In this document: in pieces, positions 11,721-51,136 of the stretch
Numbering within the stretch: position 1 is the first letter of the stretch
How the letters are laid out: every line of letters begins with the position of its first letter
Assembly: GCA_951230915.1 (NCBI GenBank)
Contig: OX579634.1
Span: 52,899,570-52,963,569 of the forward strand
Source of the DNA: Antitrichia curtipendula
Taxonomy: Eukaryota; Streptophyta; Bryopsida; Hypnales; Leucodontaceae
DNA: 64,000 nucleotides
Direction of reading: 5' to 3'
Notes under the pieces: model-generated
Seen by the model: only the letters and a program-made list of their open reading frames with translations
What the model was told of the DNA's origin: nothing
Databases searched by the model: none
Translations under genes and position numbers: made by a program

Positions 11721-11726
11721 ATGTGC

Positions 11727-12648: not shown

Positions 12649-12649
12649 A

Positions 12650-14400: not shown

Positions 14401-14654
14401 CCACAATTTTTTCGTAATGTAAACCGTTGGCCGATTCTAACATGGTTTAGGGGTAAGTACGACTTTCGACGAGGACTGCAGCTCACTTTTGAGTAAAGAA
14501 ATTTCGCCCCGCGCTTCCTTGTTCCTAGCTGGGCTGCCGCAATCCGCCATGACGCTCGTTTGTCCCTCGAATGCTGATTTTTCTCCGTTGGTTGATGTTG
14601 CAGCAGGATTGTCCTCGCCTGTCTTCCCAAATCCTTTGCAATTCGATCCTTCCC

Positions 14655-17555: not shown

Positions 17556-17887
17556 TCGCCGGATGGGCTAGTTTGTATCATGGAGAACCGAAGGAGGATG
17601 CCCAGAACACTGTGAATTCAAAATTTGGGAAACAGTGGACTATTCCTTGGATTGTTTTGGAGGGTAGAATACGGTAGTTATAATCTTTGCCGGTTGTTTC
17701 CTTCTGAGCCTTGACCCAGGGGAATTGAGATGGAACCCATTTTGTGAGACATTCTATTCTTTCCCTACTGTTGTTCCAGCCACTGTGATAGTCAAGAGCT
17801 TACCTCAAATCTAGATTTGATGCGACAGAGCAATTTGCTTGAGGCTTTGGCTGTTGCTGCAGGCACTTCATAAAGATACGTATCAAG

Positions 17888-19142
17888 TTAACCCCTAACG
17901 GATCAAAGTGTGTTTTTTGGCAACATAGTAATTTTGGGCAACTCATTACAAATGAAATTTTTATTTTTATTTTTTGAAATTTTAACACTACATTTTTCCA
18001 ACAATTTTCATAACTTTTAGACTACATTGTCAAAAAAGTTATTGACTAATATGTAGTTTTCATTGCTCAACAAGCAGACTGGGCAACAGAAAAACTTCTT
18101 TAAAAATCACTTTTTTGAAAAATAAAAATTTAAAATTGATTTTTTTTGGATTTTTATTTACATGAAAAACTTTGAATCATTCCATTTTGATTAATCAGAT
18201 GAAGCTTATAAGGAGTTTTAGTTGAGGGTAGTTTATAAGTAGTTATGAAACTTCTATTCCAAAATAAACTTTGAAGTCCTTTATTTTATTCAATTTCTAA
18301 TGTTTTTGAAAAAGATAAAAATATTAGGTTTAGATTTTTTATTACAACATGTCAACCATTGGGTTTGGCATTTTTCAATTCCATAAAATAAATGGTTAAC
18401 ATTTAGTATTTTGAATCATTCTCTACTTCTTTCTACTTACTATTTGTTTTGTATTTGTTGTACAATTCTAAATGATCTCAAAATTTTCAACCATGTATAG
18501 TCGGACCATCCATTACCAACCAACCAAGGATGGATTCCCAACTTCTAGGGTATTGCTATTTCCAATCAATCTATTTTTCTTGTAAATTGTTGATTTTAAT
18601 GACATGCAAGGCTACAAGAAGCAATAGTTGAATGCCACGTGTTATTTTGAAATTTGTGCACATGAGTAGGAAGCAATCTTCCCTATGATCGGAATTGCAT
18701 GAATCTATAGGTAAGATATTAGTTCCAAATATTTTTTGCCTCCCAAAATTCACAGAAATTTCAATTTTGTGAATAAAATTCTGAAAATTTTGCAATTACT
18801 ATATTTTCTATCTCCCTACACATGAAAAATTCCCATTGCTCTCAACTGCTCACCATCTATTCCACAAATGCTTAAGTGATTAGATATGGGTGATCCAACC
18901 ATAACCAACTCGCCTTGAAGAATGAATCCAAAGAGTTACAACCATTTTGAATTTTTTTTCCATAAAGATCTAACCTTGTGAAGTGCAGTTGTCTGGTTAT
19001 TCACAGGGGCAAAAAAGGAATTTGTCATTTCAAACGCTAATATCTTGCAATCAACTCTATGGAATTTTCTGAAATTTTTTCTACATCTTCTCAAACCATT
19101 GTACTACAAGATCCTATGGTTACATTTATCTTTAGGGGTTAA
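17888..19142. mobile_element. TTAA-bounded inverted-repeat element, copy B (inverted relative to A)
   Basis: Begins TTAACCCCTAAC (17,888) and ends TTTAGGGGTTAA (19,131-19,142), about 1,255 bp. Read on the minus strand it follows copy A (11,727-12,648): the GTAGTACAATGGTTTGA core, the GATTGCAAGATATTAG segment and the final CCAAAATTACTATGTTGCC segment are shared. There is no transposase and no open frame beyond about 75 codons. It lies just 3' of the lyase gene, so the gene sits between two inverted copies. Confidence 0.7.
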
Positions 19143-19700
19143 GAAAACAAATGAAATCAATATTTTAGACTCCGGAATGTTTTCTAGACTACCAATATGT
19201 TTGTCATTCCTACTTTTGCATTAGACAGTCTGGTGTCTAGGGTCTTTAAAAAATGATTTTAAAATAAAAGTTTTTTAAAATTTTATTAAAGTCCCAAGTC
19301 CTTTTTTTCATCAAAACCCACCCAAAATTGGAATTTCTATTGCACAAAGAAAAAAATTTAAGTTTTTCTTTTTCTATTTTTTATTGGATATCTAGCCATA
19401 GAATCTTGCATCAACCCTTAAAGGTTGAGGCGAAGGTTTGGCATCTGATGGATGACAGATAATCTTTTAGTGTAGGATAGAAGTGCAACTATTCATCTTT
19501 GGAATTTTGTATAAAAAGGGGAGATCTTCTAAAATACTTTGACTTTGAATGCGTGCTTTTGGATTCTCTTAAACCAATGATTTCCACAGTATCAAAATGG
19601 ATGATTTCCACAGTCACCAATCCGTCATTTAAGGATTAAATCAATATAAGAATGTGGAAGTAATTTCAAAAACTTCAATGCAAGATATTTGCATTTAACC
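19143..19700. other. AT-rich spacer between elements
   Basis: No gene. Contains words shared with the repeat scrap in the lyase intron (CATCAAAACCCACCC, GGAATTTCTATTGCAC). Confidence 0.4.
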
Positions 19701-19701
19701 C

Positions 19702-20355
19702 TTAATCCCTAAATGCCCAAGGCCTTTTTTGAACTTTTGGGAATTTGCTCTAAATTGAACAAAAAAACAAAAATTTGATAAACTGTATTAGTTCTTTTTG
19801 AATTGTAACCATACAGATTCAAACTAAATGTATTAGAGATCACATAGGAAAAGAAAACACAACATCACCTATACATTGAAAGATTATAATGTTTGATAAA
19901 GACAATGTTAAAACTGCAAAAGTGATTTGAAGTCTTTCAATCCTCTTTTTACATGTCAAATCTAAAAGTTGGTCACCAAAAAAATATAAGGATAAAGGGC
20001 CTAACATGCATAATTCCAATCCATTTATGGCTTCTCACAATTACTCTACAATTTTTTTTAAATGAATTTCTAATATGATTTTTTCTCCAAGATCTAGTGT
20101 ATTTGAGGCTCATTTTTAAGAGTCCTCAACACTTCAAGAAGTCAAGATTGCAATGGACATCCTTAAACAACATCTTGAATAGAAAAATCATATGTATTCA
20201 TTTATTTGAAAAATCAATTTTTAAATGCTAAAACTAGACTTCAAAAATAATCTTTCAAAAATATAAATTACTAAAAATAGTAATTTGGTAATGTTTTATT
20301 TAACTTCAAAGTTTTTAGACCCCACGTTTTGGTGCCTCAAGCATTTAGGGATTAA
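19702..20355. mobile_element. Third TTAA-bounded element, perfect 15-bp inverted ends
   Basis: TTAATCCCTAAATGC at 19,702-19,716 is the exact reverse complement of GCATTTAGGGATTAA at 20,341-20,355. The 654-bp interval has no open frame of note. The interior does not match copies A and B, but the terminal CCCTAAA next to TTAA does, suggesting a related subfamily moved by the same enzyme (inference). Confidence 0.65.
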
Positions 20356-23300
20356 AACAACATTACCTTGTGTAAACTAGGTTTTGTTTTTCACAAAACC
20401 TAGGGTACAATAGTATAGGGGTTCTTAGTTTTGGGGAAAGGTTTAATCAATCTAGCGTTTTGTGACTAAAATCACTTTCAAATAGATTTATGTTTAAAAG
20501 TTTTCAATAATATTACACCACTTTTATTTCCAGGTATGTGAAATTTGAATTGTCAATCCATTACCAATGTATATGACCCAACGTATGAAGTACTAGTCCT
20601 ATATAGTGTTCTATAAAGAGGTCAAAAATTTTGATCAAAAGTTTAGGTTTGGTCAAATTATCTTCTGCAATGAATGCTCTAGGACCTAATGATATATACG
20701 AAGTAATACTTTGAAAATAATACAAATAATTCATTAATTATTCTTTTTAGGTGTTTGGGTCAATTGGTCCAATAGGTGCTCGCCATGAACAAAACTAAAT
20801 GCAAAATGCCTAAGTCTGTCAGTTCTACGTCAAAATTATTCCAATTAATGCAAAGTATGGTGAGTTTAGGTGTTTTACAAAATTTTATCTTTCTCCTTAA
20901 ATTTTCTACTATATTTTTCTCTAGGTCAAATGGTTAGGTCAAATGGTTAGGTCAAATGGTTAGGTCAAATGGTTAGGTCAAATTGTCCAAGCCAACATTG
21001 GTCAATTCCCTAAATTCACACAAACATTAGAACAAATTACAATGTGCCCAAACATATAAAATTCAAATTCAAACACTAAATTTACAAGGGTCTTAAAACC
21101 GTGACCATGAACCTAAGTCCGTGGTCCATACCCCAAGACCAAGCGCTGAATTTTTTTTAAATAATGGTCAAGGACCTAAGAGCATGCGACTAAATTCCAA
21201 AACTATGGACTAAAGCCTTAAGACCATGTGATTTGGCTTATAGTTATACTCCATAACCTATGACCGCGGTGCCGCATCCTAAGACCGCATGTAGCGACCC
21301 AAGACCGTGGCCAAATCCCTAATCAAGATTTGCAGCGCCGAAGCTCCGCAGCGATCTGCCACGTCGATCTCCAATTCTAGTCAATTCATCTGAATTCAAG
21401 AGAATTTGTTTCAGTTTCGTAGTCAATCAATCGATTTGATCTATGCTATTCTCCCAGCAATCAAATTCGGTCATACTTTTGAAATTTGAAAAAAATCGGC
21501 GATGAAGTCAGGCCAAACGCCGCAGCTTGCCAGCAACCAATCTTCCGACCAATCCACAAATTGGATTATGATTTGATTTTCAATTCAATGATTGCACTGT
21601 CTGAATGATTAATCAATTACACAAGCAATCTGCATTGAACAACGAATTCACCGAACAACGAATTCACCAGCGATCACAATTCCCAAATTTATTCAGCCTC
21701 TTGCTGCTCAAGTCAAGGTTGAGGCCGATCGACTTGCTCAACACAAGTTCGTTGAATTGCTCTGGACGGGAGATTTCCTTCATCAATATTGAGATTTGAA
21801 TTTCAAATTTCAAATTCAGCTTGTCTTCAACTCTTATTCACGTTAATGGCGCTCCTTGCTGTCCAAGATGATACCGCAACACCAGATTCTGGATGCCTTG
21901 AAATTTTAAATTGTTTTGATAATTACTGAGGTCGTAGCTTGGATTTGGTTCAACATCCCAAGATTTCGTACAGCAGGCTCTAATAGCCTTCAATTCGATC
22001 CCCTCTCACCCCAACCCTGATCGGACAAGCACTCAGCACCAATTCCCTCACAGATCACACCAACAATTTGCAACAAATAGTTTAGAAGAAAATCCCATCA
22101 ATTCTCAGACTCTCATTTTGCGCAGCACCGATCTCCACAACTTCAGTTGCAGCCTTCAATTTTCCGTTCAATCGACACTAGACTCTCCATTCCACTCATT
22201 CAAAATCTCTACATATAATAAACAACAAGAATAAACGGCAATTGGGCAATTAGAATTTAATAACAAGCAAGCATGTAAGACAAAAATAATAATAATATAA
22301 ATATATTAAATATAATGGGTCATACCAAATGCCATTTTTTTTATTTTTTAAAGTCTATTTATAATCCTAAAATGAGGAATCACATCTTTTGGGAAAAGGT
22401 GTGTCCAAACTCACACCCATTCATCCAATTTTAATTTTTTTTAATTTTTTAATTTTATATTTATCTTACCTAAATATCCCTATTTACACTATTACAAATA
22501 TTTTAACTTTAAAAATAACTTTATTTAAACTTTTTCCTAATAAGGGTCTCAAATAGGCTCCTTTTTTCTATAATTACTAATCTTTAACTATTTTTTTTGT
22601 TTACACCTTGCCTAATGGGCAACCCAAGAGAGAATAAAAAAATCTCCTTGAAATGGGTCTTGTTGCTTGCCTAAAATATATTTGATTAAGGCATGCAAAA
22701 TTGAACATTGAATAGTCTTTTGACTTTGTAGTCTAAATGTAGTGCTTAGTGAACCATATTCAATATAGAAGTGAGTACAATAGGTTGAAACATTCCAAAA
22801 AAAATGCACAAAATATTTTTTGTCAATGATTCTCTCAAAATCAAGCCTTAGGGGCTTGGCTTGTCATTTAAAGGTTTAAGTGTAGAAATGTTTTTTTTTT
22901 GTACTTTGTGTAACTAAATAATAAAACTTCAAATCTTCTTAGCTTAAAAGCTTTGCACTACAAATTTGAAACTTAAGTTTTTTATATTGAAGGTTTAAAT
23001 TGACAATCTAGGATTCTTGTTTAATTTTTAAAAGACTTGATTTCATTCCTTAGAAAAATTGTTAAATAGGTGCATGAGTACTTGATAGAAGGAAAAACTA
23101 AATTGTTAATAGCTCAATGAGATTTTCTAGCAAGCATATTAAATCTTGTGGAACTTTTTGTTTTCAAAATTTCAAAAATTGAGTTAAAAAAACAAATCCA
23201 GTACATTATTTCTCAAGAAGTTTCTATGATTGCCCACAAAATAAAAAGCTCCATAACTTTCACATCAAAAATTCAAATGGAATGAATAAAAAACTTCTAT

Positions 23301-23590
23301 ATAGAAAAAAATACAATGTATGAGTTTTTTTTTAATCATTTCAAGTTTTTGTGAGTTTCTTTTGCTTATTTGTCAACTTTAGGATGGCATAACTTTTGCT
23401 TCCAGACACTAATTGAAATAAAAATTATATTCTAGAGAAGAAAATGTATGTTTCTAACATAAACAATTGTGCCAAACTAATTGTGTTCATAGGAACCTAT
23501 TGATATCTTAGTTGGAATTTAAATTTTGATTTTTTGTATTCAATTTTGTATGTCTTTGCTTCATGGTGATAGGCAAGTTATGAGTTTGAG
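20356..23590. other. Intergenic DNA, no gene seen
   Basis: Mostly AT-rich. At 21,060-21,310 the word AAGACCGTG and variants (GACCATGAACCTAAG, GACCGCGGTGCC) recurs roughly every 30-40 bases, a worn short-repeat field. From about 21,300 to 22,220 the DNA is less AT-rich and pyrimidine-rich, with no open frame longer than 64 codons. Nothing else is supportable. Confidence 0.45.
20924..20985 (+). repeat. 13-bp tandem repeat
   Basis: GGTCAAATGGTTA is repeated at 20,924, 20,937, 20,950 and 20,963, with a fifth diverged unit at 20,976. Confidence 0.9.
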
Positions 23591-23599
23591 TTCCAATTT

Positions 23600-25145
23600 G
23601 TTGATTTTGAGTGTTTATTAACCAATTTGGAGGTCATTTTTGTGATTTTGTTCCAAGTCGATATGCCCAAAGTAGGAAGGGCTTAGGTGGTTGTGTTTCA
23701 AGTTGGAGTGAAGTGCCAGCTTGGGTGTCCGAGTTGGAATCTGCAGGTAGTTCGGAGGCGGTTGCCAAGTGGTTCCAAGTTGGTGGGTTTTTTTTGTGAT
23801 TAGGCAAGGCCAAGTTGGTTGGGAATAATCGTTGGGTTGCTTCCTATTAGGCCTAGAATTCCAATTTGTTTTTCATTGTTTGAGGAAGTTCCAATCGTGT
23901 CCCAGCCAAGTTGTATCGTGTATCTTGTTTGTTTTTGTTTGTGTGTTTCCAAGTAGGAGATGCTTGTATTTGTGAGTGTATCAGTGGTGTGCTTGGTGGT
24001 GTCATGTCCAAGTCGAAGTGTGCGCATGTTGATGAAGTTTGCGGGAATTATGAAGGAGCAGATGATTTCCTATTTGGAGATATGCAATAATGACAATGTT
24101 GATAGCGTGAGCTCATGGAGATTGAGATGCATGTCCTAATTGGGGAGAAATTTGGAGATGTGTGCGAGGCAGTGAATGTTGAGTTGGAAAATATCTGTGT
24201 GATGAAGAAGATTGTATCATAATTGGAAGATGAAGTAAATGAGTGTTAGGTGAGTAAAGAAGATATTTTAAACCAAATCTAAATAAGTGTGTACAAGGAG
24301 AAGAAGAACTTATGAGAAGTAATGAAAGTGGAGTGTGATGGATTAAATGTTGTAATAAACTCATATATTTGTAATGGTGATTTTATCACCAATTTGGCTA
24401 AATTTAAACGGAATTTATACCAATTGTGTTATAATGTGTGTATGTGATATAGAAATGAACTTCTGGTGAAAATTTGAATATTGAAGTTTGTGTATGTTTT
24501 AGATGTTAAGTCATGAGTTAAAGGAGAAAATTTTGCTGAGTACGTAAGTGAAAGTGTTGTAATTGTTGTAAGCAAAGAGCGTGTTCTAATTGGAGTGAAA
24601 TGGAAGCCTGAGTGTTTGTTTGATTTATGAAGTGGTTATTTAAGAGAAAATTAATGTTTATAATTGTGTGACTATTTGAGCTTGTCAATGATGTATCACA
24701 ATGGGGATGATTGGCATTAATTGTGCTGAATGAAGTTGAGAAGCTCAAGTTGGAGTTTAAATTTTGAATGTTTTTTTTTTATTGTGTCCAATTTGGTGTT
24801 GTGAAGTAAATGTAATGTCTAGCAATTGAGAGAATATTATTAGATGTAGTGAGTTAGTTTATTAAATCCAAATTAGAAAGAAAGTTTATTTAAGATTGAG
24901 TGAATTTGAGAATGTGAAGATGTGTTACAAGTAAGCTGCTGGAAAGCGTAAGTGCTGCAAATGCCGAAGTCATTTGAAGCTAAATTGTGTGATTAATGTT
25001 GTGCTAAACAAGTTGGTAATAATGATTTGGCTATTCCTCAAGTCGAAGACAAGAATCCGGGCTTATAGTGATGCAATCCTAATTGGAAGTTGAAGAGCCA
25101 TAGTTGGCTGTACCAATAATAAAACTAAGTTGGAAAAGATAGAAG
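23600..25145. repeat. Field of CCAAGTTGG / CTAATTGGA words
   Basis: Words of the form CCAANTTGG, CAAGTCGAAG or CTAATTGGAG occur over and over (for example near 23,690, 23,776, 23,808, 23,909, 23,950, 24,009, 24,137, 24,221, 24,590, 24,748, 25,012, 25,040, 25,079 and 25,130). CCAAGTTGG is nearly palindromic. The field has no gene. It resembles the other palindrome fields in the window that sit beside element genes, so a decayed element end is likely (inference). Confidence 0.5.
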
Positions 25146-25289
25146 ATCAAGTGATCAAAGATTACATATTTAACAAACAAAAAAGATTCTCTTTCAATTA
25201 TGACCATTAAGAGTGGAGAGAATAAATTGAGCAATTAGCAATACCTTGTGAGGAAAACAATGTACATGAGAATACCAAATGATGAATAT

Positions 25290-25350
25290 GGAGTACCAAA
25301 TAATAAAAATAAAAAAAAAATAAAAAAAAAATAAAAATAAAAAAAAAATC
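25290..25350. repeat. A-rich low-complexity tract
   Basis: AATAAAAATAAAAAAAAAA pattern; no other content. Confidence 0.8.
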
Positions 25351-25496
25351 AGCAGTCTAACATGGTAGACCTTTGGACACCTAGGATTATTTTGATTTTT
25401 TGAAGGAAAAAAATTGAAATTTTTTGTACTCAATTTTCATGGTATATGGTCAACAAGGTGAAATCCGATTTTATTTTACTTTATTTTTATATTTTA

Positions 25497-25579
25497 ATTA
25501 GGAGAGGAATGAAGCCTCAATAAGGCTGCGAGATCTGTAATAGCTTGTACTGCTAAAAAAATAGTATTCCTCTCCTAAT
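25497..25579. repeat. Short perfect inverted repeat
   Basis: ATTAGGAGAGGAAT (25,497-25,510) and ATTCCTCTCCTAAT (25,566-25,579) are exact complements around a 55-nt loop. It could be a small structured element or the end of a worn LTR. It does not fold as a tRNA. Confidence 0.6.
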
Positions 25580-27050
25580 GCTAATAGGCTTAGTTTTTCC
25601 CAAATAGGATCTAAACTTGTCTATAGAACTTGCCTTGAACTTCCATTTGTCCTTTGAGGGGACAATGAGATTTTAGAAATTAAATTAACTATTTCAAGAA
25701 GTTTAGGGTTTAATGGAATTAGTCCTAATTCATTTAACTCCTAAAGTCATTAAAGACTCTATGTCACTTTCATTATTTCAGTAAGGCCAATTGGTTCTTC
25801 AATGCTTCAAATAATTATTATATATTAATAAGTACATTGGAGATAAATTATTAAAAAAATAGTAATAAATTAAAAACATGCATATATAGAATAACTATAA
25901 CCTTGTCAACAACAATTTTATTAATAGAACTATTCTAGGATAGTGGGACCTTAAATTGACAAGTATCTAAAAGTAAACCCCTATTTTTTTTCAAATAGCA
26001 AACCAAATTTGTACGTAAAGCCACCAAGCATGCTATACAAAACTTAGTAGATTATCAAAGTGGCTATTCATGCATCACTCTCTATTGCTTTAAGATTTCA
26101 AATGTGTTATTTCCTACTAAATCTATGGCCCATTGTAGGGGCCTATAGAGTGTTGCTTTTGAAAATTTATAACATATTCATTAAGTAACTGGAAATTTAG
26201 ATTGTACTTGCAACATATCATTATAACTTGCTAATTTGTTTGAACAAAATTTTCACTATGTGGCTACACAAAAATACTTGTATTATTGGTGTAAGGTGCT
26301 ACTCTCTTATATCTTACAAAGAGCTTAGGCAAATGCACTTCATGAATTTGCATAACTCTTCAAATAATACAAATTTAGTGTTATTACTTTAAAAGCACAA
26401 AAATTAAATGAACTAATATACCATTTTTAATAAAAATAATATTTTCAAGCCATTTTTGTCAAAAATTATAGCCATAGTAAATTTAATACAAATTTATTAT
26501 ATTCTATAACAAATTAAAAGACGTTTGCACCAAGTGATAGTGATAGATGGCCATATTTGTTAGATTGAGACAAAATGGACATTTTGAGACTTCAATCCTA
26601 TTATTTGAGACCTCTATTTTAACAAATCACAAATTTATGAACATATCAACTTTTATAAAACCAAAGTTTTGTGAATGTATGAACATATTAAAGTCTCAAA
26701 TTACCAAAAAAATTCAATATCAAATACTTCTTATTATCCAAATGTAAAGTCAAAGATAATATGAGATTGCAGATTCTTTCATTTTAATAAATATGGTCTT
26801 TAGCTGCAAATAATATGCTAATGAGTGTAAAGACTTACAATTTATGGAAAGGTTCGAACCACTTCAATATCTCATCCATCTAAATCTACTAATCCCAATC
26901 AAACCCACAACAAATTAAGCCATGCTCTTCTTCAAATAATTATGTAAATCCTTTCATGATCTAATGTCAAAATATGCACTTTTTCAAAAGAACAAGTGTG
27001 AATGTTACATAGGTTAGTTCATTTTGACATTTCAAATTCCTAACTTTGGC
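25580..27050. other. AT-rich intergenic DNA, nothing seen
   Basis: Open frames are short and random. No repeats or termini that I can support. Confidence 0.45.
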
Positions 27051-28513: not shown

Positions 28514-29272
28514 ATGCCTGCAAGGTTTGTTGTTTTCCGGTTGAGATTGGAGAGAGAAAGTGATGAACGGGACGTGCGGCTAGGAGAGGGTGAGGTAGTA
28601 TCGGAAAGGATCCGGCTAGTCAAGTCTGTGTCCATGCCGCAGCTTCACAAGAGTAGACCGGGGTCGTCCAGTTCCTCCGCAACTAGGGTTAAGCTCCGGA
28701 AGGTGATTCCGATCATCCCCTCTAAAGAGCAGGAGAGGAACTAGCTCATGGAAGACCTCACCGCGATAGGTTGCCTAGGGTAGATAGATAAACCCTGGGG
28801 ATTTAGAGAAGAACGGATGGTAAGAGAGTTATTGGGAAAGTTATCAAATCAGTTTGACAACACCACCCGGGAACTTTCGACCTGTTGGACGGAAGAGATG
28901 TAGAGAGCGGTTTACAACTTCCAATTAGGAGGTCTTGGAATGGCAAGCCAGAAGGACAAATTCATCCGGGGGAAGTTTCGGGGAGCAGTGAATCTAAAGA
29001 ACGGATATGCGGTCGAGGATTATGTAGACAACCGCCACCGCAACCTTCTCTAGTTCCTGATTCCGATCCTCCACTCGGAGAAGTCGACAAGGGTGATGAT
29101 AACCCTTGGTAACACTATTTTTGGAGTCCTGAACAGGGATCGAAAAGCGGATTGGGCCCAGATCCTTTTCGATTTGGTGTCCCAGTTTGTTACCAGGATT
29201 GGGGAGAATGCTGGTATGCGAGCGTAGAGTAGCGAGCAACGAGCGAAAAGCGAGGAGCAACAATATTAGAAC
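28514..29272 (+). pseudogene. Unknown mobile-element-like ORF broken only by TAG codons
   Basis: A single uninterrupted frame runs from ATG 28,514 to at least 29,224, apart from in-frame TAG at 28,742-28,744, 28,781-28,783, 28,901-28,903 and 29,051-29,053; two more TAGs (29,225, then after QQY near 29,270) follow. The segments between stops are clearly protein-like: WGFREERMVRELLGKL, FDNTTRELSTCWTEEM, YNFQLGGLGMASQKDKF, RVMITLGNTIFGVLNRDR. There is no indel over more than 700 bases. I do not recognise the protein with certainty; a retroelement gag-like or element-specific structural protein is possible. Each stop fits a former CAG (Gln). Upstream is a TATA-like box at 28,350; downstream is a GTGGATGAAAAA minisatellite. 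Confidence 0.55.
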
Positions 29273-29309
29273 TATAATATAATTTTTGGGATTAAAAAGA
29301 TTAGAAAAA

Positions 29310-29545
29310 GATGAAAGTTTTTGAAAAAGTAGACGGAAAAGTGGATGAAAAAGTGGATGAAAGAAGTGGATGAAAGAAGTGGATGAAAAAAGTGGATGGA
29401 AAAGTGAATGAAAAAAGTGGATGAAAAAGTAGATGAGAAAAGTGGATGAGAAAGGCGGTTTAGGAAAGTGGATGAAAAAAGTGGATGAAAAAAGTGCATG
29501 AAAAAGCGGTTTAAAGTGATGAAGAAGTGGATGAAAAATTTCTCC
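29310..29545 (+). repeat. AAGTGGATGAAAAA minisatellite
   Basis: AAAGTGGATGAA units of 12-17 bases repeated about a dozen times with small length changes. The Phe/His/Pro-rich frames on the minus strand (29-29.7 kb) are read-throughs of this repeat and not genes. Confidence 0.85.
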
Positions 29546-30019: not shown

Positions 30020-33000
30020 TCAAGGATAGAGTCCGCTGTTGGTACTACTATCTAAATTTGATGATCCTGAATCTGATTCCATCTCACAGTCGTCCACAAA
30101 GTTCAGAACACGGGGGTCGACTAAATGGGCACGTGAGGTTGGCCTTGGGTCTGTCGTGATGAACTCCGTCAAAAGTGCCTCGACATATTCAAGGAGTTGA
30201 TATAGTTTTGGGGGGCTTGGAAAAAATTCCGGCCTCCTCCAAAAAGGAATGCGGCTGAATTTCCTTACTTCTTGGGCCGCTCTACAAAACTGAGTTAACA
30301 AAACATTAGATAAGCAAGAGCAGAGCTTATGCATTACATGGAGAAATGGAATGACAAATAGACTTACTTACTGAATTGGGCTGTCTTCACGACACGTTCT
30401 GGCACAACCTCCTCGTCCTCAAGATCTATAGGTGCAGAAGCAGGGTGTACAAATACAAAGCGAGTAGGTGCACTTGTGCACATGACCGGAGCTATGAGTC
30501 CATCAAAGATCACCTTGTCTTCCTCAAATGCAAGTACATGACGTCAAGTAGCGCGACATGCCTGGATGCTGGATCCTAAATACAAGGTGACATTAGAAAA
30601 TAACTATTTAGTGACGGGGACTATTCCAAAATTGATGAATAATAATTGGAGAATTAGTGTAGCTTAGCTATATAAATTATCTGTAGCCGTTGTGCAATCC
30701 ACAACCACATCCCTAGGTTCTGAAAGTACCTCTACCAGCATCTGCATGAATTGGCGAGCCTTTTCGCGAGGACCCCCCCATGGCCCATGGAACTTCTCCA
30801 TTCATGGTGACATTTTCTTTGTTCAGGAAGTTTTGGAGAATGTCATCAGGGGCGACGTTTACCCCTACTTCTTGATGTGATGGAACAAATTGGAATGGAA
30901 ATGCAGAATCCGTTTAGGGCCCAATTCCCTCACGAGAAGGGAGATAGAGAATCACATCGTCTGCAAAATTATATAAGTCAAAATGCATCACCGAGGATTT
31001 AGGTTCAAAATTTGATTGAGGATAGAGTTGGTAATCAATAATACCGTTTTAGTAGGATCGGCCAACGACGTCAAGTACAGGTGGTTCATGCCTAACCATG
31101 TCATGAGGATCCTGAACCCGTACATCTCACAGCAACCTAGAAGATGACTTTTTGTGCTGATAGGATGGTACTAGATACATCACCAACAAAGCACCATTGT
31201 TGTGGAGGTACTCCTTTGCGAAGTCAAAGATGGAAGAGAGGCAGTCTTTCTTGAAGTCGTTCCAAGCGGGAATATCCATCGGTGCAGCAGAATTGTGGGC
31301 ACATGCAAGCCTTCTGGGACATCCACTAGGATGAGGTCCACGGCGGGTCCAGTTCCCAATTTACCTTCAAAATATCTGTCCTTGTCACTTGAATGCTATA
31401 CAAAAAACCAAAGTAATTTAAAATGAATGCAAGCTGAACTACTTTGCCTAGCTTCACGGATGAAAACAAAAGTTACCTCTCACGGATTGGTCAATGAATA
31501 AGTGACTACATAATGATGTTTCGAAAAATGTCATTTTACCATGTCCAAGAATGTCAAGATAGAGTCGAAGACCTTCTCATTTGTGGCAATAGCACCCATT
31601 GAGAGATTGAGGATGCACTCGTCGATGTCAAGAACAGGAACAAAGTTCTGCACCGTCGGAGTGAGCCCATGAACAAGGCGATCTTGAGTGAGAGAGAACC
31701 CTGATGACCCCTCTCTGATGTCTGCAGTGCTACTGGCTGGTTCGTAAATAGGAGTGCCGGCTTTTCTCTTTGTACCCTTCTTCTGTCCTTTCTCTTGCTC
31801 TTTTTCTGCCCTAGACGCCAGCCGCTTCATTTTCACATCCTCAGTCCTCTTCTTTGCCTCTTCCAGCCGCTCCACTTTCTTCCTGTCAGACGCATCCCGT
31901 TTGACAATGGCCTTGGCTCGTGCCTCAAGATCCAAACCAGCGAACTCGTCAAACTCAGGCTCAAGGACAGATGTCTCTTTCAACGTGTTGAACAATGTTT
32001 CTTCTTCCGGCGGAGTGAAATCGATGTTGCACTCAAGGTACCATGGACATGCTTGAAGGTGAGGAGTAGTCCAATTTCGAAGTTGCTAAGTCGTGAACAT
32101 GCAGTCAGCGGATGCCCTGTCCAACCATGTCTTGAGGAATGGTGGCAAGTCTGCTCTCGCAATAGCCTTCTTGGTGTAGAGTTTGAACTTGAAGTACCTG
32201 ACCATTCAATGAATGTTTATTAATAGGTTCCACAATTCAGAAGTCAACATAACAAAGCAATCCACTGACCATTACATCTCTTGAAGTGCACTAAATGTGT
32301 ACTTAAAAATAAGGCGGTGCACGGCTAGCATGGCGCCCTTGAAGTCCCTAAAGTTCTCCGACTTCTTGAAAGCGTCTCTACCTTTTAACATTCTAGAGTA
32401 CGCTATATCCCAAAGCTTCATCCTCCATCCCTTGATGTATTCCTTGAGAGTTTCAGGTTTTGCAGGAACGCCCATGTTAACAGTAATATTATCAGAGCGG
32501 ATAATATTGTCGAACATCTCCGAGGCGGCCTCCTCTAACTGCAAAATAAAATTGTATCTCAGTTACTTAATAGTGACGACATACAGGTATTCATTAGGGA
32601 AAGTGAATGAAAACAAAAAAGTATGAATAATGAAAGGAAGGATGACTTACCCCAGCATACCAACAAGCCTTAGCCAGAAATAATTGCAATTTTTCCTCGT
32701 TCATAGGTCATGGAGGAAAGCGTTGCGCTTCCCTGGTAGGCGCCGACGAGTTCATCCACTTGAGCCACATGACCTTGTATTCAGAACTAGCATTAGCTTA
32801 TGCTATCATTTAAAGCTTCTCTAAGGTCAACTCCAGAGTAGCGAAGAGGTTCCAATGCCTCTCAATCTGTCCATAAAGTGAATGATACATTAGATCGCAG
32901 CAACACAGACAATAGAAAATAAACAATTATATGAAATTCAGCAAGATGAACCTCAACAAGCCAGTCCAGGCTAAGAGCTGGATTAGCTACAGAGACTATC

Positions 33001-34672
33001 TTGGACAGCTTCTTGTAGTACTTCTCCATAGAGTCCTTAATGGAGGTCCTCATAGTAGCTGTAATTCCTTCTTTTGTAACGTCATTAGGAAAAATGTTTT
33101 CCTTGTACTTTCTCACCACAACCTCGGACGCTGCAAAAATCTCTTGCTGGAATTTCGGAAATGCAGACATATAATCATTAGAACTACTGGAAGTGAACTA
33201 TGAACAAGACATATAAATTTTCAGTGAACAGTCGGCGGATAGTAGTGGATCCTATACCTTAAAAATGAATGAGGTAAAGACCTCAAGGGGCATGGTATAC
33301 CATTTCAATCTGTTATTGGATTGATATGTCTTCAGTTTATTGGCGGATAGAAGTTCCTTAAACTTCTCGAGGTCCATCATCCCATACTTCTGAACACAAT
33401 ATAAGGTGTGAACCAAATTCGTCTTCACATGGTAATTCTTTGTGTGCTTGTAATACCATCCCAATGATTATTAATATTGGAAAAATAAAGCATTATCACC
33501 TAGAAGAAATATGCATGTATATTCTTTGTAGAAATTCATTTGTTAATATCATGCATAGCTTGCATTGCTACGCCAATCCGATTGCGAGTATCCAGAATAA
33601 TTGAGTCCATGGAGATATGCCAACTCCTCTTGATTTCCATCATAGACATTGAACTTGTAATCCACCAAGTGCTTCACTATAGGTTGCGACCTCAACATAT
33701 TGTTGAAGTCATCATAATTGGATTCCAAATTGGACCCCATTCCTCTTTCTTTGCCGCAGTGAAAATTGAATTCTAACCGTCTTCGTTACATACAGACACA
33801 TAAAAAACTCTGGCTCCTTCTTCATAACCCCCACTGAACTGGTGTTCCAGCAATGTCAAATTGCATGTAAGTGTGGGCCAAACTATAGGCATGGGAACCA
33901 TCCGACAAAGAGGAATTCTCATCCTAGATGCATCCATGGAAGTGAGCCTTAGTCCATGAAGAATGGACATAGTGTCCAACTTCTGGAACCTCCTTATCTC
34001 ATCTTCCCCGGCATCCATCCGCAGTCCAAGAATGTTGCCATCATTGGGTATAGAGTCTGAGGCAAGTTCATCAACATGTCTTCCCTTCATCAAATGAGGT
34101 TCTTCTTCGCCGTTAGGCTTTTCCGGCTCGTAAGGCATCTGCATCAAAGAAGGCGAAGGAGATGAACAAATGAAATAGACAACGATGGTAATTATGGAAT
34201 AAGCAGAAGAAGTAGATCCAATGGCAACTCCGACTTTCTCAATACAGCACAACGTGCATCAAGGAATAGAAGTTTATCAACTAAATGGCACACACACACC
34301 GTCCGGTAAGCTCCCGGTAGTGCCTACAACACCAGATGAGAATGTCCAAATCCAATTCGGCTGCTAATGTAACTTCAACGTCTACATGACTATAAGTGCA
34401 ATACCCATCATCCACTAACGTAACCTCACACTCTATCCTCTCATTGCATGAACCTACTGAGGTGCACGAAGACAAATCCGGTGCCAAACGGCCGTCCCTG
34501 TACATTTTGTCCATCCCTGCATCAAGGTCCTGAATCAGATTGTCAAGACTTACGGCTTTTCTTGCCGATTCAATTGGTACTGCATCTTCCCCAGATACGC
34601 CATCTCCTTGTCCAACAGAAGGGGATCCTCCAATCCAACTAGTGGGTCGATTTCGACATGCTCTATATTGCC
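30020..34672 (-). pseudogene. ParB-like / beta-class DNA methyltransferase-like fusion gene, decayed
   Basis: Exons by GT/AG borders, 5' to 3' on the minus strand: 34,672-34,300, 34,138 to about 33,520, 33,437-33,258, 33,146-32,952, 32,538 to about 32,272, 32,197-31,540, 31,395-31,045, 30,960 to about 30,680, 30,575-30,372, 30,281-30,020. The second exon holds a ParB/sulfiredoxin-like core: HLVDYKFNVYDGNQEELAY (DGN-x-x turn), then ILDTRNRIGVAMQAMHDINK. The seventh has DLILVDVPEG (31,309-31,338), in the place of motif IV DPPY, and FAKEYLHNNGALLVMYLVPS. The eighth and ninth give REKARQFMQMLVEVL, then DVVVDCTTATG and HVLAFEEDKVIFDGLIAPV, the motif X then motif I order of beta-class N4/N6 methyltransferases. 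The family would bind and methylate DNA; here it cannot make one full protein. Breaks: TAG 33,773-33,775 and 32,086-32,088, TGA 30,544-30,546, and frameshifts near 34,555, 33,750, 33,600 and 31,290. A 265-bp tandem array lies directly upstream. The domain calls rest on motif reading, not alignment. Confidence 0.6.
31309..31338 (-). other. Methyltransferase motif IV region (DLILVDVPEG)
   Basis: In beta-class DNA amino-methyltransferases a hydrophobic strand ends in (D/N/S)PPY. Here the strand DLILV is followed by DVPEG, so the first proline and the aromatic are changed. The position, a little before the FAKEYLHNNGALLVMY strand and well before motif I, fits. Catalysis would be doubtful even without the stop codons. 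Confidence 0.5.
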
Positions 34673-34859
34673 CTGCATCACCAAGATGCAAACAACCACA
34701 ATGTCAGAATAACATCAAGAAAGGCACGCTACACTTCTTTTCCTAAATATTGATACCAATTCCTGCTCCCCGACATCCATAACATAGAAATATCCAACCA
34801 TAGACCACAGCAACACCTTGACCCAATTTACAAAAATATACAATAATCCAGAACAAAAA

Positions 34860-35870
34860 GCCATTGAGTAGGTGAATCTGAGATGGGATGAGTATGGCCT
34901 GTCCACATCCAGAATGTGTCCCGCCCTGAGAGGGGTCGGGAGGGTGGTCTAGCTATGCTCAGATACGCCCTGTCTGGGCTAGACTTGTGCGGTACCGCAA
35001 GGCCCCATGTCAAAATCTGGTTATGAAATCGAGCACCATGTGTTGGTCAAGTCAGTTCATATCAAGACAGACTACACCAAGTCAAGAAAAAAAAATATGG
35101 AAATCCAAATACAATACTAGGGCCTCGAGCACGCTGAACTTGGGCTTCGCTCCTTGAGCATGGCCTGTCCACATCCAGAATGTGTCCCGCCCCGAGAAGG
35201 GTCGGGAGGGTGGTCGAGCTATGCTCAGACACGTCGTTATGGTTGAGCACAAGTGCGGCACCGCAAGGCCCACGGTCAAGATTTACATTTGAAATTGGTC
35301 ACCAGGTAGCATTCTAGAGAGTCCAAGGGTAGGGTGATCACATCAAGACAACCAAAAGAAAACCGTAAATCAAAGTCTAGGGTCTGGGCCGCAAGAGAGC
35401 TGAACCAAACCTTGCCGTTGTGAGTTTGGCCTTCCATACACCAGACAGTGTCTCGCCCCGGGAGGGGTCGAGAAAGTGGTGGAGTTTTGCTCAGCCACAC
35501 TTTATTGGAGGAGCACAAGTGCAGCACCATGAGGCCCACAATCAAAATGTTGATTTGAAATCGGTCGCTAGGTAGCAAACTTAACAGCCCAAAGCAGGAG
35601 AGATCCCATCAAATCACCAAAAAAACTAAAACCTAATCCACTGCTTGGTCTGCAAGGGACCTAACTCCGAGCATGACTTTGGATAGTTTAGCCTTTACAG
35701 ATGGATGGCCTGATCTTTCCGCGAGGGGTGGTCGGAGGGTGGTCGGAGGTTGCATAGCAACACCGCATGGGCAGACTAGGTGCGCCGTTGCGAAGTAGGC
35801 GAGGCAAGGTGGATTTTAAAATCGGTCACTAGGGGTTGGACTTAGCAATAGGGTAATGAGAGCGGGGCCT
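34860..35870. repeat. Four-copy tandem array, about 265-bp period
   Basis: TGGCCTGTCCACATCCAGAA begins units at 34,895 and 35,161, with diverged third and fourth units at 35,427 and about 35,688. Each unit continues with a GAGGGGTCGGGAGGGTGGT-like stretch, a GCTATGCTCAG-like stretch and GCAAGGCCC. The array is GC-richer than its surroundings and starts just upstream of the ParB-methyltransferase-like gene, as a subterminal or promoter array would. Confidence 0.75.
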
Positions 35871-37265
35871 TATCAAAATCCAAAAAAATTGTAATTTTAA
35901 GACCCAGGGCCAGATTCTACGACGTCCTGACCCCGTGCTTGCCGCATTTGAGCTACACTCACAGAGGCAGGAGGTCATCCGGCCTCGACTGGATTTTGCT
36001 TGACTGTGATTGGGAATGTGTAGGGCAACTGGGACCGTTTTGACAATTAAGACGATGAATATATGAATGAAATTAGAATATTACCTGGGTTCTTTGTGTG
36101 GAGCTGCTTCTTTCAGTTTCTCTTGTTCCATGATTCTGTATTTGTGCCCTCCTCGATCTCAAATTCCAATCTGTCGAGTTGATCTACCAAACACGTATAT
36201 GGATGTTTGCTATTGCCTTCTACAACATGCAACTCATAGCATGAGTATGACCCTATATGACCTGTGTTGTTGCGAATGACTTTTTAGTGTGTGGCTTGAC
36301 TTCCAGCTCCTTTACTTCACATGCTGAACCTCGACCCTTCGCACCCTAGAGTTCCACTAGACTCTGGATTCAACCAAGGTAGTTAATCCTGCCCTCTCCC
36401 TCTAATATGTCTGGAATTTGGACCAAGAACTACACTAAGATGTAATTCTAATATCCTGGCTAGGGATGTCCCATGAACGTATGTTGTCTCATTCACATTG
36501 ACATACATATTCCGAGTTTATGTTGATCTCCATTTTTCCATACATGCCCTTTTAAAAACTCTGCCTGGGACAACAAACTAGACCTCCTAGGCAGATTCAT
36601 GTGAGGGTACAATCAATGCGCGGCTGACCGGCTGTCTCAACTGATTTTTATACATAATCTAATTTATTTGAGATGTTCTTCTTTTAGAATCTGATTAATA
36701 AAGTACTTTAAGTCATGTACCGAATCCTTTCATTATATCGTTCTATATATGCAATAGGGAAGTTCAGTTTATATATATGTATGATTGTGTTTCGCAACAC
36801 TGACATGCTGGACTTTTACATAGCATCAATACAATTTCAAAACTTCCATCTATTGTACTGTAAAGTTGGTCATTCCACTTAATCATACTTACAGGAGGTA
36901 TTCATGACAGATCAATATATAACAGTAATTACTGATTTTGATCCAGGAGATGGACATGATATACTCATTAATATTTTCACTTCACGTGGTTATTTGTGGA
37001 GGCTATGGGTACATATATGATGGTTTGATTTGCTTTTCTATTACTTACAACATCCTTGCATTATCCTACAGTCATAAGTGAGATCTGACTAACTTTGTGC
37101 ATTAAGGTGTTTTGCGTCTAGGACAGTCACCATGGGTATATTGATACATGTTCTACTCATTTGGTTTCTACGGCTCTCTTGCTATATTACAATTTGTTAT
37201 ATTGCGTTCTATATGTTGCTTTCTGGTTGTCAATATTAAAATGGTTTAGTCACTCGCAGTAAGTG
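35870..37265. other. Intergenic DNA, no gene seen
   Basis: No open frame longer than about 70 codons, no repeats beyond single words. Nothing supportable. Confidence 0.45.
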
Positions 37266-40103: not shown

Positions 40104-42435
40104 ATGGGTGGAGGAAGATCACAGTGGGAACCTTGGTACACACTACGGCCAGATGGAAAAGTTGTTTGCAAGTTTTGCAAAGCTTTGCTAAGCTATCGAA
40201 AGGATCGGTTGCTTTTCCATTTGGGATACAGACGAAATGACACCCTCCTTGGAGTGAGAGCGTGCACTAAAGTCAATGCAACCGTGAAGGTAATGTTTTT
40301 TAATTGTGGAGGACATATACCTACGGACACTTCGCATTGAACTGGACGCGACGTGGAAGTGACATCACCATCAACGATACTACCAAGTGTAGTACGTGGT
40401 GAGCAACAACCTGATGCTTCAATCTCGGCAAACGATGGAGGAGAAAACACTGGGGGGCAAAGCTCTCAAGTACAATCATCGGAGGCGCCCAACCCTAATT
40501 TGATCCAGAGTCGATCGATGAGGCAACTGTCTCTACAAGAAGGAATGAACGCATCAAACAAGCAAGTACTTGACAAGAAGTGGGCTAAGTTTTTCTATGA
40601 AGCCAATATACCATTCAATGTAGTGAGGCATCCTGCTTTTCTGGATGCAGTGAAATCAACATCGGAATCAAGAGTTGGCTACAAACCTCCAGCGTACCAT
40701 GCACTTCGTACAAAGCTCATAAAATCTACAAAAGACGAAGTGGCAGCAATTGTAGCAGAGAAGACGAGGGCACCAATCCACAAGTATGACGTTACAATAT
40801 GCTCTGATGGATGGGACAACGTTACACATCGACCATTGATGAATTTCATGTTGGCATGTACAAGTGGAGAGGTATTTCTTGGATCGATAGACACAACAAG
40901 CGAATGCAAAGATGCTACCTACGTGGCTAATTGCATGGGTGATTACATTGACGAGGTAGGGGCATAGAACGTGGTACAAGTTTGTACAGACAATGCAGCA
41001 AACATGTTGGCCGCTGGCGCTCTGTTACTTCGTAGATTTTCACACATATATTTTCAAGGGTGTTCAGCACATGCACTTGACCTTCTACTTGAAGATTGGG
41101 GAAAACAAGATTGGATTACAAGTATGGTCAAGAAAGCCAAGTCAATTGTGAAATACATTCGAACGCATCACATGCTACTTGCAATCTTTCGACGACATTC
41201 TCCTAATCACGTTTAATTTGAAAAATCCCGTTCAAACACGCTTTGCAACCATGTTCCTCATGATCGAACGTTTGGTGGAGGTGAGGGAAGCGGTAGAATC
41301 GACAGTCCACGATCCGCAGTGGAATGAGTACACACGGAGATTGGCATCCAATCAAAAGCAAAGAAAAGCTAACAATGTGCGACGATATGTGCGAACGGAT
41401 GAATTTTGGAGGAAATGTTTGAACTTTGTGCACATAGTGCAGCCCGTGTTGATTGCTCTTCGAGAGCTTGATGGCAAGCACCCGTGCTTGGACAAGGCAT
41501 GGCTTGTGATGAAAAAGGTGGAAAAGCATGTTTTATCTTTGGAGGATCCACCATTCGCATTAGAGCGGAGGTATGCAATTTCCGCCACCGATGATTTCTA
41601 CAAGCGCTGGGACATACTCAGGACAGATTTGCATTACTCTGGGGCTCTATTGAATCCCTTTTTACTTGACGAAGTGATGCTAATGGATGATAATGAGGCA
41701 AGAGAAGCCATATTGAGAGTTTTGTGCAAATTGGCTATTGGAGATCAAGCATTTGCTTCAGCTTTGTTTGAGTACCAAGCATTTAGAGATCGGCGAGGCA
41801 TTTTTGGTGGACCTCCTAATGTAAACACCTTGAATTTGCAGCCTCACGAATGGTGGGACCTTCTCGGAGCCGGTGCTCGTACACTTGCACTGATTGCCAG
41901 AAAGATCCTCGCGCAAGTGTGTTCTGCATCATCCTGTGAACGCAATTGGAACATGTATTTGTTTGTTCACAACAAATCACGCAATAGATTGACATCAGAG
42001 CATGCTGAGGAATTGGTTTACATTTATACCAATTCCAAGACTTTTAGAGAAAGGGCTGCAGCAAATCCGACAAGATGGTATACTGAAAACATGATGTCAG
42101 AGGATTCCATGACAGATGAATCTGATGGTCTAGACCGTGGTTTGGTTCTCTCTGATCCCAATGATGATGATTCAGATGATAGTTCCAATGACAACGATGA
42201 GCCACCGATTGATAGATTTCGTGGGGTGGGAGCAGTGCGTCCTCTAATTGATGCATCCGTATTTGACTTTGAAGAGGGGGATAATAACGACAATGACTAT
42301 GAGGGACATCAAGGAAGTCCACCACGAATGCCACAAACGTGGAATGCTGGGCCAAGTGGGGGCAATACAAATGAGGACGTTGTGACACCAAGACCACTAA
42401 GTCCAGACCCTATGGATGTACAAGTTGATGGGTGA
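40104..42435 (+). pseudogene. hAT-family transposase (BED finger, DUF659, hAT dimerisation)
   Basis: Exon 1 (40,104-40,289, ending AAG|GTAATG) encodes a BED-type zinc finger: PWYTLRPDGKVVCKFC, then LLFHLGYR. The second block (about 40,353-41,216) has a DUF659 core: NVVRHPAFLDAV, TICSDGWDNVTHRPLMNF and VCTDNAANM, the usual positions of the first two catalytic acidic residues (SDGW, TDNA). The third block (from 41,220) runs to a typical hAT C-terminal dimerisation region, CERNWNMYLFVHNKSRNRL and EELVYIYTN, followed by an acidic tail and TGA at 42,433. Two breaks: TAG at 40,965-40,967 just before NVVQVCTDN, and a one-base shift at about 41,213 where the reading passes from HV to NLKNPVQTRFA. The protein would cut and move its own element; as written it cannot. 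Upstream lies the CCGTCC/GGACGG palindrome field. Confidence 0.88.
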
Positions 42436-42439
42436 TCGC

Positions 42440-44640
42440 ACGCTACGGTTGCCCCCCTGGCCCGATGTGCGATCAAATGCGATTAGTACAAACTGTACAA
42501 CTTTGGTACGCCGCACATCCCGGCGGCTTTACTGGTCGGTTTGACTTGTTCAGTTTGCGCTCTGAGGATGTCTAACCCTCCAGTGACTAGTTGCACACTT
42601 GTTCAACAGTGCATTACAGATTATTTTCCGTTTCGTACTTCTAGCCTAGTTCAACAGTGCATCACGACTTACTTCCCATTCTGTAGTACTCAACATTGTT
42701 CTTTACATTGTGTGTTTGAGTCTTTGGTTACTTCGACGGACACTTCGACGGGTGGATCCTATATCTCCGAAACTTCGACTTCGAAGCAAGGTGACATTGC
42801 GTATTATCTAGGAATTTGTAGTACTACTGTCATGAGGAGCAGCAAGGCGTTGTTTGAGCGGTCAGTGACAGCAGAAGCCCCAACTTCATCGTCTGATTCA
42901 GTGAATCAAAGTATTTGAAGGTTTGTATACGTACTTTACTTCTAATTGCACAGGACTGAAATTTCAACTTACCTATTGGAAGGTCTGTTTGACTCTTAGA
43001 GAATGAGCGTATGTTCGGATTTAGTTGTATCCTTCAAGTCGTACATTGGACGCTTTGTATTTCAAGCACCCACCTTCTGTACATTGGCAGGACTGGAGGC
43101 TAGGTTTGGGACGTACTATCTGCAAAGGCACTTTGTAAGTTACCTCATCACCTAGTACATAATCAATTTCTGCATTAGTTCATGTACTTATTTTGTACGA
43201 GGGGTACCACTTGTACTGGGACTGAGGCATTTGTACCGATAGCGGTTTTAGGAAAGGAATTATTGTACAGTGCTGCTCTACCATCTCATGGTTCAAGAAT
43301 TACGGACTGTATCAATTGTTACCAAAGTACAGGGTTCAGAGTTCTCAAACCACATTTCGTTCAAGGAATGTAGTGAACTTACTGTTTGTACTAAGACAGT
43401 TGCATTTGTACCGATAGCGGTGAATGAAAGGAATGTTCGTAAAGTGCTGCAGTACCATCCTATGGTTTCAACAGTCCTAATTGTACTAACTGAAACCAGA
43501 GTGCAGGGTTCATAGTTCTCAAACTCAGTTGTTTTCAGAAATTGTAGTATTTGTAGTCTGTGTACTTACAAATACACTTGCAGTACTTATGTTACTACTA
43601 ATCAATCCTCATGGAACAATCATCTTTCATTTACATAAGTAACCATTGTACTTTATATTGTCAGAATAGCTTACTATAGAGTATAAAAATTGTACATTTC
43701 TGATTTTGTGTACTTATAGTCATAATTGTGGTACCTTCAGTACTTTTTGTACTGATAGTAGTACAAAATATTGATCACTTTCTTCTTTGCTCCGCCATTG
43801 GACAGATGCCGATAAATTGGATTGGAACGCAGCTGCAAATTACAAATTCAGGACTATGGAGTTGTGTACACAAGTCCAATTTGACGAGAGGGACGAGCCA
43901 AGCTATGGACCGACCTTTGGAGCTGGGGTTTTCGGGGTACAATTTCTACAACAACGTGGAGCAACGGTACTTCCCCATCACTTGCACACCGTACTCTGCT
44001 GCACTATCCATACCCACCCGCAACTAGATTTGCTTGTGCTCTTTGTTCTTTGTTTTCATTAACCTCTGGCGTTTATTTTCTCTTTTGCTCGTTTCAACCG
44101 TCCAGCTGCCTGAGGGTGCCTTAGGTTTTTTTTTCTATCAGTTCTATCAGTAAAAGATCCACCCGGAAACAAATTTCTAACCGTATTTTGATGGATAGCA
44201 AGCTATCGTGGACGCTGTATTCCAGGGGGTGCAGCGTTGAAGATGTAGTCTTCTCACTAGTATCAATTTTTGGTGTATTATGTGCGGAAGGTAGAACAAG
44301 TCACCGTCAATTCAATCTTCAGGCTTCATATTTCGGGTTTACCGCGGTTCTTTTTCTTTAAGTACAACTTTACAAAAGTTGTGGCACAATTAGTTCACAG
44401 AGTGCGTGGTCATTTCTCAGCTTTCACTAAGTTCATGCATTTCCTACCTTTGATCATTTATGGTCATCAGTAAATATACATAATCCATGGGTCCGCGTTC
44501 TCCCGGTAGTTTGCAACTTATACATGGAAACTGTTTCTTTATACAATTAGGTACAAAACCTACGAACTTTGCAAAGAGGTACCAAACAATGTACTAGATA
44601 TACCATGGCAGTGCACCTTTGTCTTTGAACGTTGTTGCCT
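42440..44640. repeat. GTAC-saturated non-coding region, left part
   Basis: The word GTAC, itself a palindrome, occurs far above chance: I count 14 in 43,079-43,560, about one per 34 bases against one per 256 expected. Contexts are TGTAC(A/T), AGTAC(A/T) and GGTACC on both strands. A diverged duplication (TTTGTACCGATAGCGGT at about 43,230 and 43,408) is also present. No supported gene. The enrichment continues, with interruptions by coding exons, to about 55,270. Confidence 0.7.
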
Positions 44641-50153: not shown

Positions 50154-50229
50154 ATCTCGCCTCAACCGCACGAAATCCCGATTTGTTGTCAGTTTTCATC
50201 CTAAACTAAACATCACGTTTTGAAGAAAA

Positions 50230-51130: not shown

Positions 51131-51136
51131 AAAGAA

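Follow-up and report, generated by a model that had tools for sequence, protein, structure and literature searches.

Sola1-1_Ec32, a transposon of Ectocarpus, carries an accessory gene that encodes a ParB-methyltransferase protein (Dinatale et al. 2025, PMC12477816), and the accessible part of that paper reports similar proteins in green and red algal transposons. Described here is a ParB-methyltransferase-like gene of the moss Antitrichia curtipendula. It was found in a stretch of 64,000 nt on contig C2 (OX579634.1, positions 52899570–52963569), termed the window. A reading of the window made from its sequence alone had stated that no named plant system of this kind was known. No ParB-methyltransferase transposon system for land plants was found in the open literature searched, so in this respect the statement stands, but Sola1-1 and the algal transposons provide a precedent (accessible text of PMC12477816). 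ParB is not mentioned in the accessible part of PMC12695648.

By the published description, the Ectocarpus gene resembles the moss gene, a probable transposon accessory gene with ParB- and methyltransferase-like domains. The carriers differ: the Ectocarpus element belongs to the Sola-1 superfamily, whereas in the moss elements the target duplications are 9–10 bp long and the second gene matches nothing in Pfam. Bacterial and phage ParB-methylase fusions, e.g. Bce_0392 (PMC5512222, as far as its accessible text describes it), have the same domain pair on one polypeptide; the moss-genome gene differs in having introns, a long middle part and an altered motif IV. Rotifer N4CMT (PMC8885841) is also a eukaryotic gene with a bacterial-type PF01555 domain, and its targets include transposons. 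N4CMT differs, however, in its SPPY motif, its chromodomain and an N4-methylcytosine activity shown in E. coli, and the word ParB is absent from the accessible part of that paper.

The ParB-methyltransferase transposon gene thus represents a known principle; what is new is a motif IV that lacks its aromatic residue in all 15 copies compared, in a domain under purifying selection, together with a different target duplication. The best explanation of the whole, judged moderately probable, is a transposon-borne and selected ParB-methyltransferase-like accessory gene whose product would bind element DNA and whose second domain probably does not methylate.

The gene and its two domains

The sequence-only reading had proposed a search for intact paralogues, and such a copy was found in the moss genome (400 Mb in 303 contigs searched). 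Copy D (C7:8620000–8649999) displays ten exons, nine introns that all have GT-AG borders, and an open frame of 1028 codons up to a stop. In the predicted 1028-residue product, a ParB/sulfiredoxin (Srx)-fold domain with an intact DGNHR box is followed by a long middle part, which includes a charged linker, and then by a methyltransferase domain that is permuted and beta-class-like. Both domains appear to be encoded by a single intron-bearing gene, and the open exons of copy D point to a single transcript.

The first half has a predicted alpha+beta fold of the ParB/Srx type. The DGNHR-type box is presumably the conserved ParB/Srx box with an arginine in the active pocket. Among the 33 database relatives of the ParB exon, six end before this box; the other 27 show DGNHR (22), DGNHK (two) and DRNHR, DDNHR and NGNHR (one each). 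In the moss genome, 21 alignments at 20 loci show 19 DGNHR, one DSNHR and one DENHR. The assignment of the first half as a ParB/Srx-type domain is supported by the predicted fold, and the pattern that the sequence-only reading had seen in the early exons is borne out by fold and box together.

The box also bears on a different role, in which the ParB half would be a nickase or NTPase and the methyltransferase-like domain its specificity module, cutting element ends or competing DNA. The intact box in 22 of the 27 relatives that reach it would suit this, as would Bacillus cereus Bce_0392, a ParB protein with an adenine methylase that is described with nonspecific nicking endonuclease activity in the accessible text of PMC5512222. 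However, a separate long gene is available as the putative transposase, and a nickase role is considered unlikely.

A close viral or prokaryotic source of the gene was sought and not found. The ParB alignment gave 20 pattern matches in the viral contigs searched and the ParB exon alignment 82 in the prokaryote genomes searched, none of them confirmed, and tblastn with the ParB exon found no relative in phage records at the sensitivity used. Only the methyltransferase half has phage relatives, and these are distant.

For the second half, copy D with its exons joined matches PF01555 (N6_N4_Mtase) with 27.5 bits against a curated cut-off of 26.7, over profile positions 163–218 of 221, which is the motif X–I end. 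The same profile, run exon by exon over the genome, gave no match at E ≤ 0.001 among 127 candidates; thus single exons of the family fall below this limit. Eight PHROG families match copy D at E ≤ 10, and seven of these are named methyltransferase (best E-value = 4.4e-9). Twelve PDB sequences match at E ≤ 10, four of them DNA methyltransferases (two DpnA entries, 0.0046–0.0047; CcrM, 0.88; MboIIA, 0.99) and the remaining eight unrelated.

Phage DNA methylases align to query residues 17–240 with 22% identity (E-value = 1e-3), and 15 of the 234 matching phage records cover at least 80% of the methyltransferase query. The methylases of Cellulophaga phage phi17:2_18 and Xanthomonas phage KPhi1 align over query residues 17–240 or 17–232 with 22–23% identity. 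The motif order IV–X–I is colinear with these proteins and is the beta-class order. The exon 9 region of copy D is where both PF01555 and the phage methylases align. Homology of the second half to DNA methyltransferases of beta-class order is supported by these alignments, in agreement with the order first read from the late exons of the window.

A chance resemblance, with ParB and methyltransferase motifs merely read into degenerate sequence, may be weighed here. The spliced, broken protein of the window, used alone as a query, gave no significant match in Pfam, PHROGs, 4907 protein-database candidates or viral contigs. In contrast, the ParB exon alone yielded 33 protein-database relatives at E ≤ 1 among 114 candidates (best 4e-52), and the methyltransferase exons yielded seven among 40 (best 1e-37). 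Single exons presumably succeed where the spliced protein fails because the database holds exon-sized eukaryotic frames. With conserved relatives, a fold match and a Pfam match of the intact copy above the curated cut-off, a chance resemblance is scarcely credible.

Motif IV is altered. In both phage proteins compared pairwise, DVPEG stands opposite DLPYG; thus what mainly sets the motif apart from a catalytic tetrad is the missing base-stacking aromatic residue, the phage tyrosine being a glutamate here. In 15 exon-7 copies (ten from the moss genome, including the broken window copy, and five database proteins retrieved by a query that carries DVPEG), motif IV reads D-[VIQ]-P-E-G in 13, DLPKG in one and DVLEG in one. 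None of the 15 has an aromatic residue or the catalytic (D/N/S)-x-P-(Y/F/W) motif, although they do not represent 15 independent lines: D, E, L024, L025 and L027 form one closely related group, and A, B, C and the window copy form another. Exon 7 is free of stops in D, E, L024 and L025. The loop that binds S-adenosylmethionine (SAM) reads DCTAATGSS or near variants (DCTASTGSS, DYTAATG) instead of DxxxGxG, with the first glycine of GxG replaced; the GSG of the phage proteins is [AS]TG in the undecayed copies that cover the loop. With both sites changed, the domain probably no longer methylates amino groups.

Two other loci, L026 (C2:41279000–41288999) and L028 (C2:55755000–55764999), have exon 6 and exon 8 counterparts that adjoin, and no exon 7, which carries motif IV, was found between them. 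These are perhaps a subfamily that lost motif IV entirely.

The sequence-only reading had suggested that the gene product may mark or protect element DNA. A product that marks it by methylation would be an active N4-cytosine or N6-adenine methyltransferase in which the glutamate of motif IV is tolerated or the chemistry has shifted. The homology of the domain to DNA methyltransferases speaks for this, as do the purifying selection on exons 7–9 (D versus C or A) and the first acidic residue and proline of motif IV, kept in 14 of the 15 copies; marking of this kind has also been put forward for Ectocarpus Sola1-1 (accessible text of PMC12477816). The missing aromatic residue and the altered GxG loop speak against it, and replacing the serine and tyrosine of SPPY by alanine abolished the activity of rotifer N4CMT (accessible text of PMC8885841). 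A DNA pattern for a tyrosine or phenylalanine motif IV in its conserved context was found at 0 places genome-wide, a count that comes without a result from the positive control with the glutamate version. The marking of element DNA by methylation is therefore not supported as proposed, and an active enzyme is considered the less probable reading, though it is the strongest of the alternatives.

The copy in the window

Exon counterparts in the window were placed by tblastn with the exons of copy D, and identities are given at the protein level. All ten exons are matched in the same order and on the same strand, from 34075 to 30134 on the minus strand, with 48%–80% identity, which upholds the ten-exon model of the sequence-only reading. 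The peptides that it quoted are also present on the minus strand: VYDGNQEELAY and RIGVAMQAMHDINK between 33660 and 33539, DLILVDVPEG and ALLVMYLVPS between 31395 and 31130, DVVVDCTTATG, whose final codon spans the 30682/30573 splice, and HVLAFEEDKVIF near 30540–30505. The gene features are as follows.

34284–34703, minus strand: upstream open frame ending in a stop, read by eye.
33542–34075, minus strand: exon 1 counterpart with the ParB/Srx-like domain, frame-shifted; the DGNHR box has decayed to DGNQE (48% identity, four stops and gaps; assigned by relatives P0001–P0033 and fold).
33258–33443, minus strand: exon 2 counterpart (66% identity).
32952–33146, minus strand: exon 3 counterpart (60% identity).
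32651–32866, minus strand: exon 4 counterpart (69% identity, three stops).
32305–32538, minus strand: exon 5 counterpart (55% identity).
31540–32196, minus strand: exon 6 counterpart, covering the middle part together with the charged linker (71% identity, one stop).
31045–31395, minus strand: exon 7 counterpart, motif IV as DVPEG and the next part of the domain, frame-shifted (49% identity, two stops and gaps).
30682–30960, minus strand: exon 8 counterpart, frame-shifted, with motif X and the first part of motif I (GPREKARQFMQMLVEVLSEPRDVVVDCTTATG) (51%–80% identity, two frames).
30370–30573, minus strand: exon 9 counterpart, with the last part of motif I and the strand after it (GSSIQAC..HVLAFEEDKVIF) (56% identity, one stop).
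30134–30277, minus strand: exon 10 counterpart, C-terminal tail (48% identity).

Compared with copy D, the window copy displays stops or frame shifts in exons 1, 4, 6, 7, 8 and 9, and its two ParB peptides lie in different reading frames. Because of these changes in six exons, the window copy is a decayed pseudogene, one of a multi-copy family. Most of its exon 6, used as DNA, is found at 41 places in the moss genome, itself included. The closest relatives are copies A (C5:5096000–5125999), B (C5:6095000–6124999) and C (C5:23809000–23838999), with 88%–92% DNA identity over most of the gene; these are themselves partly broken. The frame at 34284–34703 resembles a frame upstream of the ParB exon in copy D (17356–17724), which has the same C-x-C-x-I-stop end. 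In both copies it may encode a small protein of its own, or else belong to the gene or be an unspliced leader.

The carrier element and its abundance

Copy D and copy E (contig C8) lie in complete elements of 14.5 and 15.3 kb, which are ~96% identical over D 11686 to 26169 (blastn). The elements begin with GGGGAATGC.. and end with ..GCAACGCT; the subterminal repeats at the two ends are related and inverted, and the left end is also present in L024 and L025. Both elements have target duplications of 9–10 bp, D being flanked by CACATGTGA(C) and E by GTCTCAAAG(G). These ends and duplications agree with the earlier suggestion that an intron-bearing version of the gene is carried by a mobile element, and the assignment to a large, abundant DNA transposon with inverted terminal repeats is supported.

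A second gene of ~1190 codons in two exons, read in D, is divergent from the accessory gene. Both domains of the accessory gene are found in one predicted protein, within an element with defined ends and on the opposite strand to the second gene. The second gene is presumably the transposase, to judge from its position and length and from a SWIM-like cysteine-histidine cluster noticed by eye. Its 1187-aa protein has no Pfam match at E ≤ 10. Sola elements produce 4-bp target duplications, a length not seen in D or E. Mutator-like elements have a ~9-bp duplication and a MULE transposase domain; the 9–10 bp duplications of both elements are near this length, and the 1187-aa protein is without a Pfam match.

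The two genes are separated by a tandem array with a 255-bp unit (5.6 copies in D, 8.6 in E). In the window, three further features belong to the element.

29203–29540, no strand: left terminal/subterminal inverted-repeat-like end, which starts GGGGAGAATGCTGG and continues with GAAAAAGTGGAT-type repeats; aligns with the left ends of A, C and D, and via D also with L024 and L025.
34889–35625, no strand: degenerate tandem repeat on the promoter side of the gene, unit ~266 bp (self-blastn, 72% identity; unreported by TRF).
35626–37105, no strand: remaining stretch homologous to A, B and C, longest in B (blastn/tblastn).

The right end of D has the same kinds of repeats as the left end in the window, inverted, and clearer arrays of 255–267 bp units are present at the corresponding place in D, E and B. 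In the window, blastn and tblastn against the copies found neither a right end nor a counterpart of the second gene. Positions 29203 to ~37105 of the window represent the left portion of a large DNA transposon in degraded form. A role of the tandem array as ParB sites gained no support from its palindrome content, and the array is a candidate only.

Beside copy A, at ~9424–14387, is a more distant head-to-head remnant with exons 4–8 (34%–52% identity), a motif IV of DLPKG and pieces of the second gene; accessory exons and second-gene pieces are on opposite strands. Beside their window-like copies, B and C have in common a block of 92% identity that holds a RING-like and coiled-coil gene. This block was left out of the element, as no counterpart was seen in A, D or E. 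A weak RING-like frame is present in the window at 48402–50195 (PF17120, E-value = 0.0073, below the cut-off).

In genome searches the ParB exon had 1256 first-look candidates, of which 150 were scored, with 151 matches; the methyltransferase exon had 1125, of which 150 were scored, with 150 matches. Candidates outside the scored 150 are unconfirmed. Among the 150 listed for each exon, at least 85 ParB places and at least 122 methyltransferase places are free of stops. A listed methyltransferase exon is found downstream of 118 of the 150 listed ParB places, on the same strand and within 8 kb (median 2904 bp). No listed pair shows another arrangement, and 32 ParB places have no partner among the listed 150. 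In 200 trials of random placement, for which the lengths of five of the ten contigs had to be guessed, the average was 0.3 pairs and the maximum three.

These data bear on the possibility of a host gene, or a captured viral gene, that is unrelated to transposition and merely sits in repeats. ParB and methyltransferase domains are common in phages, and hAT and DUF7869 sequences are present elsewhere in the window. Against this, the gene lies inside elements with sharp common ends and duplications, and the 150 listed matches of each exon are located on contigs C1 to C10. No close relative was seen in viral contigs or, for the ParB exon, in phage records and prokaryote genomes. A host or captured viral gene is very improbable.

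Other features of the window include three consecutive plus-strand frames at 4999–7820, the last with DUF7869 (PF25273, 5.9e-44), probably another transposon gene. Pieces of a hAT-type transposase are found on the plus strand at 40341–42918 (Dimer_Tnp_hAT, 2.4e-9, in 41152–42435), and a frame similar to NLI-interacting-factor-like phosphatase is on the minus strand at 57429–58127 (PF03031, 3.6e-15). There are also tandem arrays at 51131–52057 (260-bp units, 3.5 copies) and 55776–56320 (85-bp units, 6.4 copies, 94% matches), and AAACCCT-type runs. These runs fit a plant-lineage source, as do 53 matches in the genome to the chlorophyll a/b-binding protein family.

Selection and a proposed role

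Between subfamilies (D versus others), the proportion of synonymous differences (pS) is 0.71–0.88, i.e. synonymous sites are near saturation, whereas non-synonymous differences are 0.15–0.25 in the ParB, middle and methyltransferase exons. The low non-synonymous change shows that the domain with the altered motif was maintained over that time. Judged from these substitution patterns, both halves are under purifying selection. Two stop-free copies of another subfamily (ParB exon, L030–L038) give a ratio of non-synonymous to synonymous rates (dN/dS) of 0.07. The middle exons give 0.41 for the window versus C and 0.28 for A versus C, and these higher values are as expected for relaxed decay. The methyltransferase exons of A versus C (ratio 0.67) include decayed sequence and say little either way, as do the recent pairs of D with E, L024, L025, L047 and L033, where ratios of 0.17 to 1.03 are based on few changes.

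The explanation favoured here is an accessory gene of the transposon. Its protein would be made by autonomous copies and, to judge from its domains, would act as an element-DNA-binding accessory factor. The ParB domain would supply a nucleotide-regulated contact with DNA. The methyltransferase-like domain would supply sequence or base recognition and may have been retained for recognition or as a partner module, comparable to METTL14 beside METTL3. A more specific proposal, offered tentatively, is that a phage-type ParB-methyltransferase became a conserved pseudo-enzyme in transposons of the plant lineage. Its ParB domain and a methyltransferase fold that recognises bases without methylating them would together bind the DNA of the same element, perhaps at the terminal repeats or the 255–267 bp arrays. 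In this way it would serve in partition or against silencing and so enable perhaps a thousand copies to survive.

ParB-methyltransferase accessory genes, reported so far from algal transposons (in the accessible literature), form a large, selected, intron-bearing family in this moss. With the many stop-free exon copies among those listed, the idea that transposons mark their own DNA becomes testable in this genome. If the altered motif IV means that no methylation takes place, the reading of the gene product as a self-marking enzyme needs revision for this branch.

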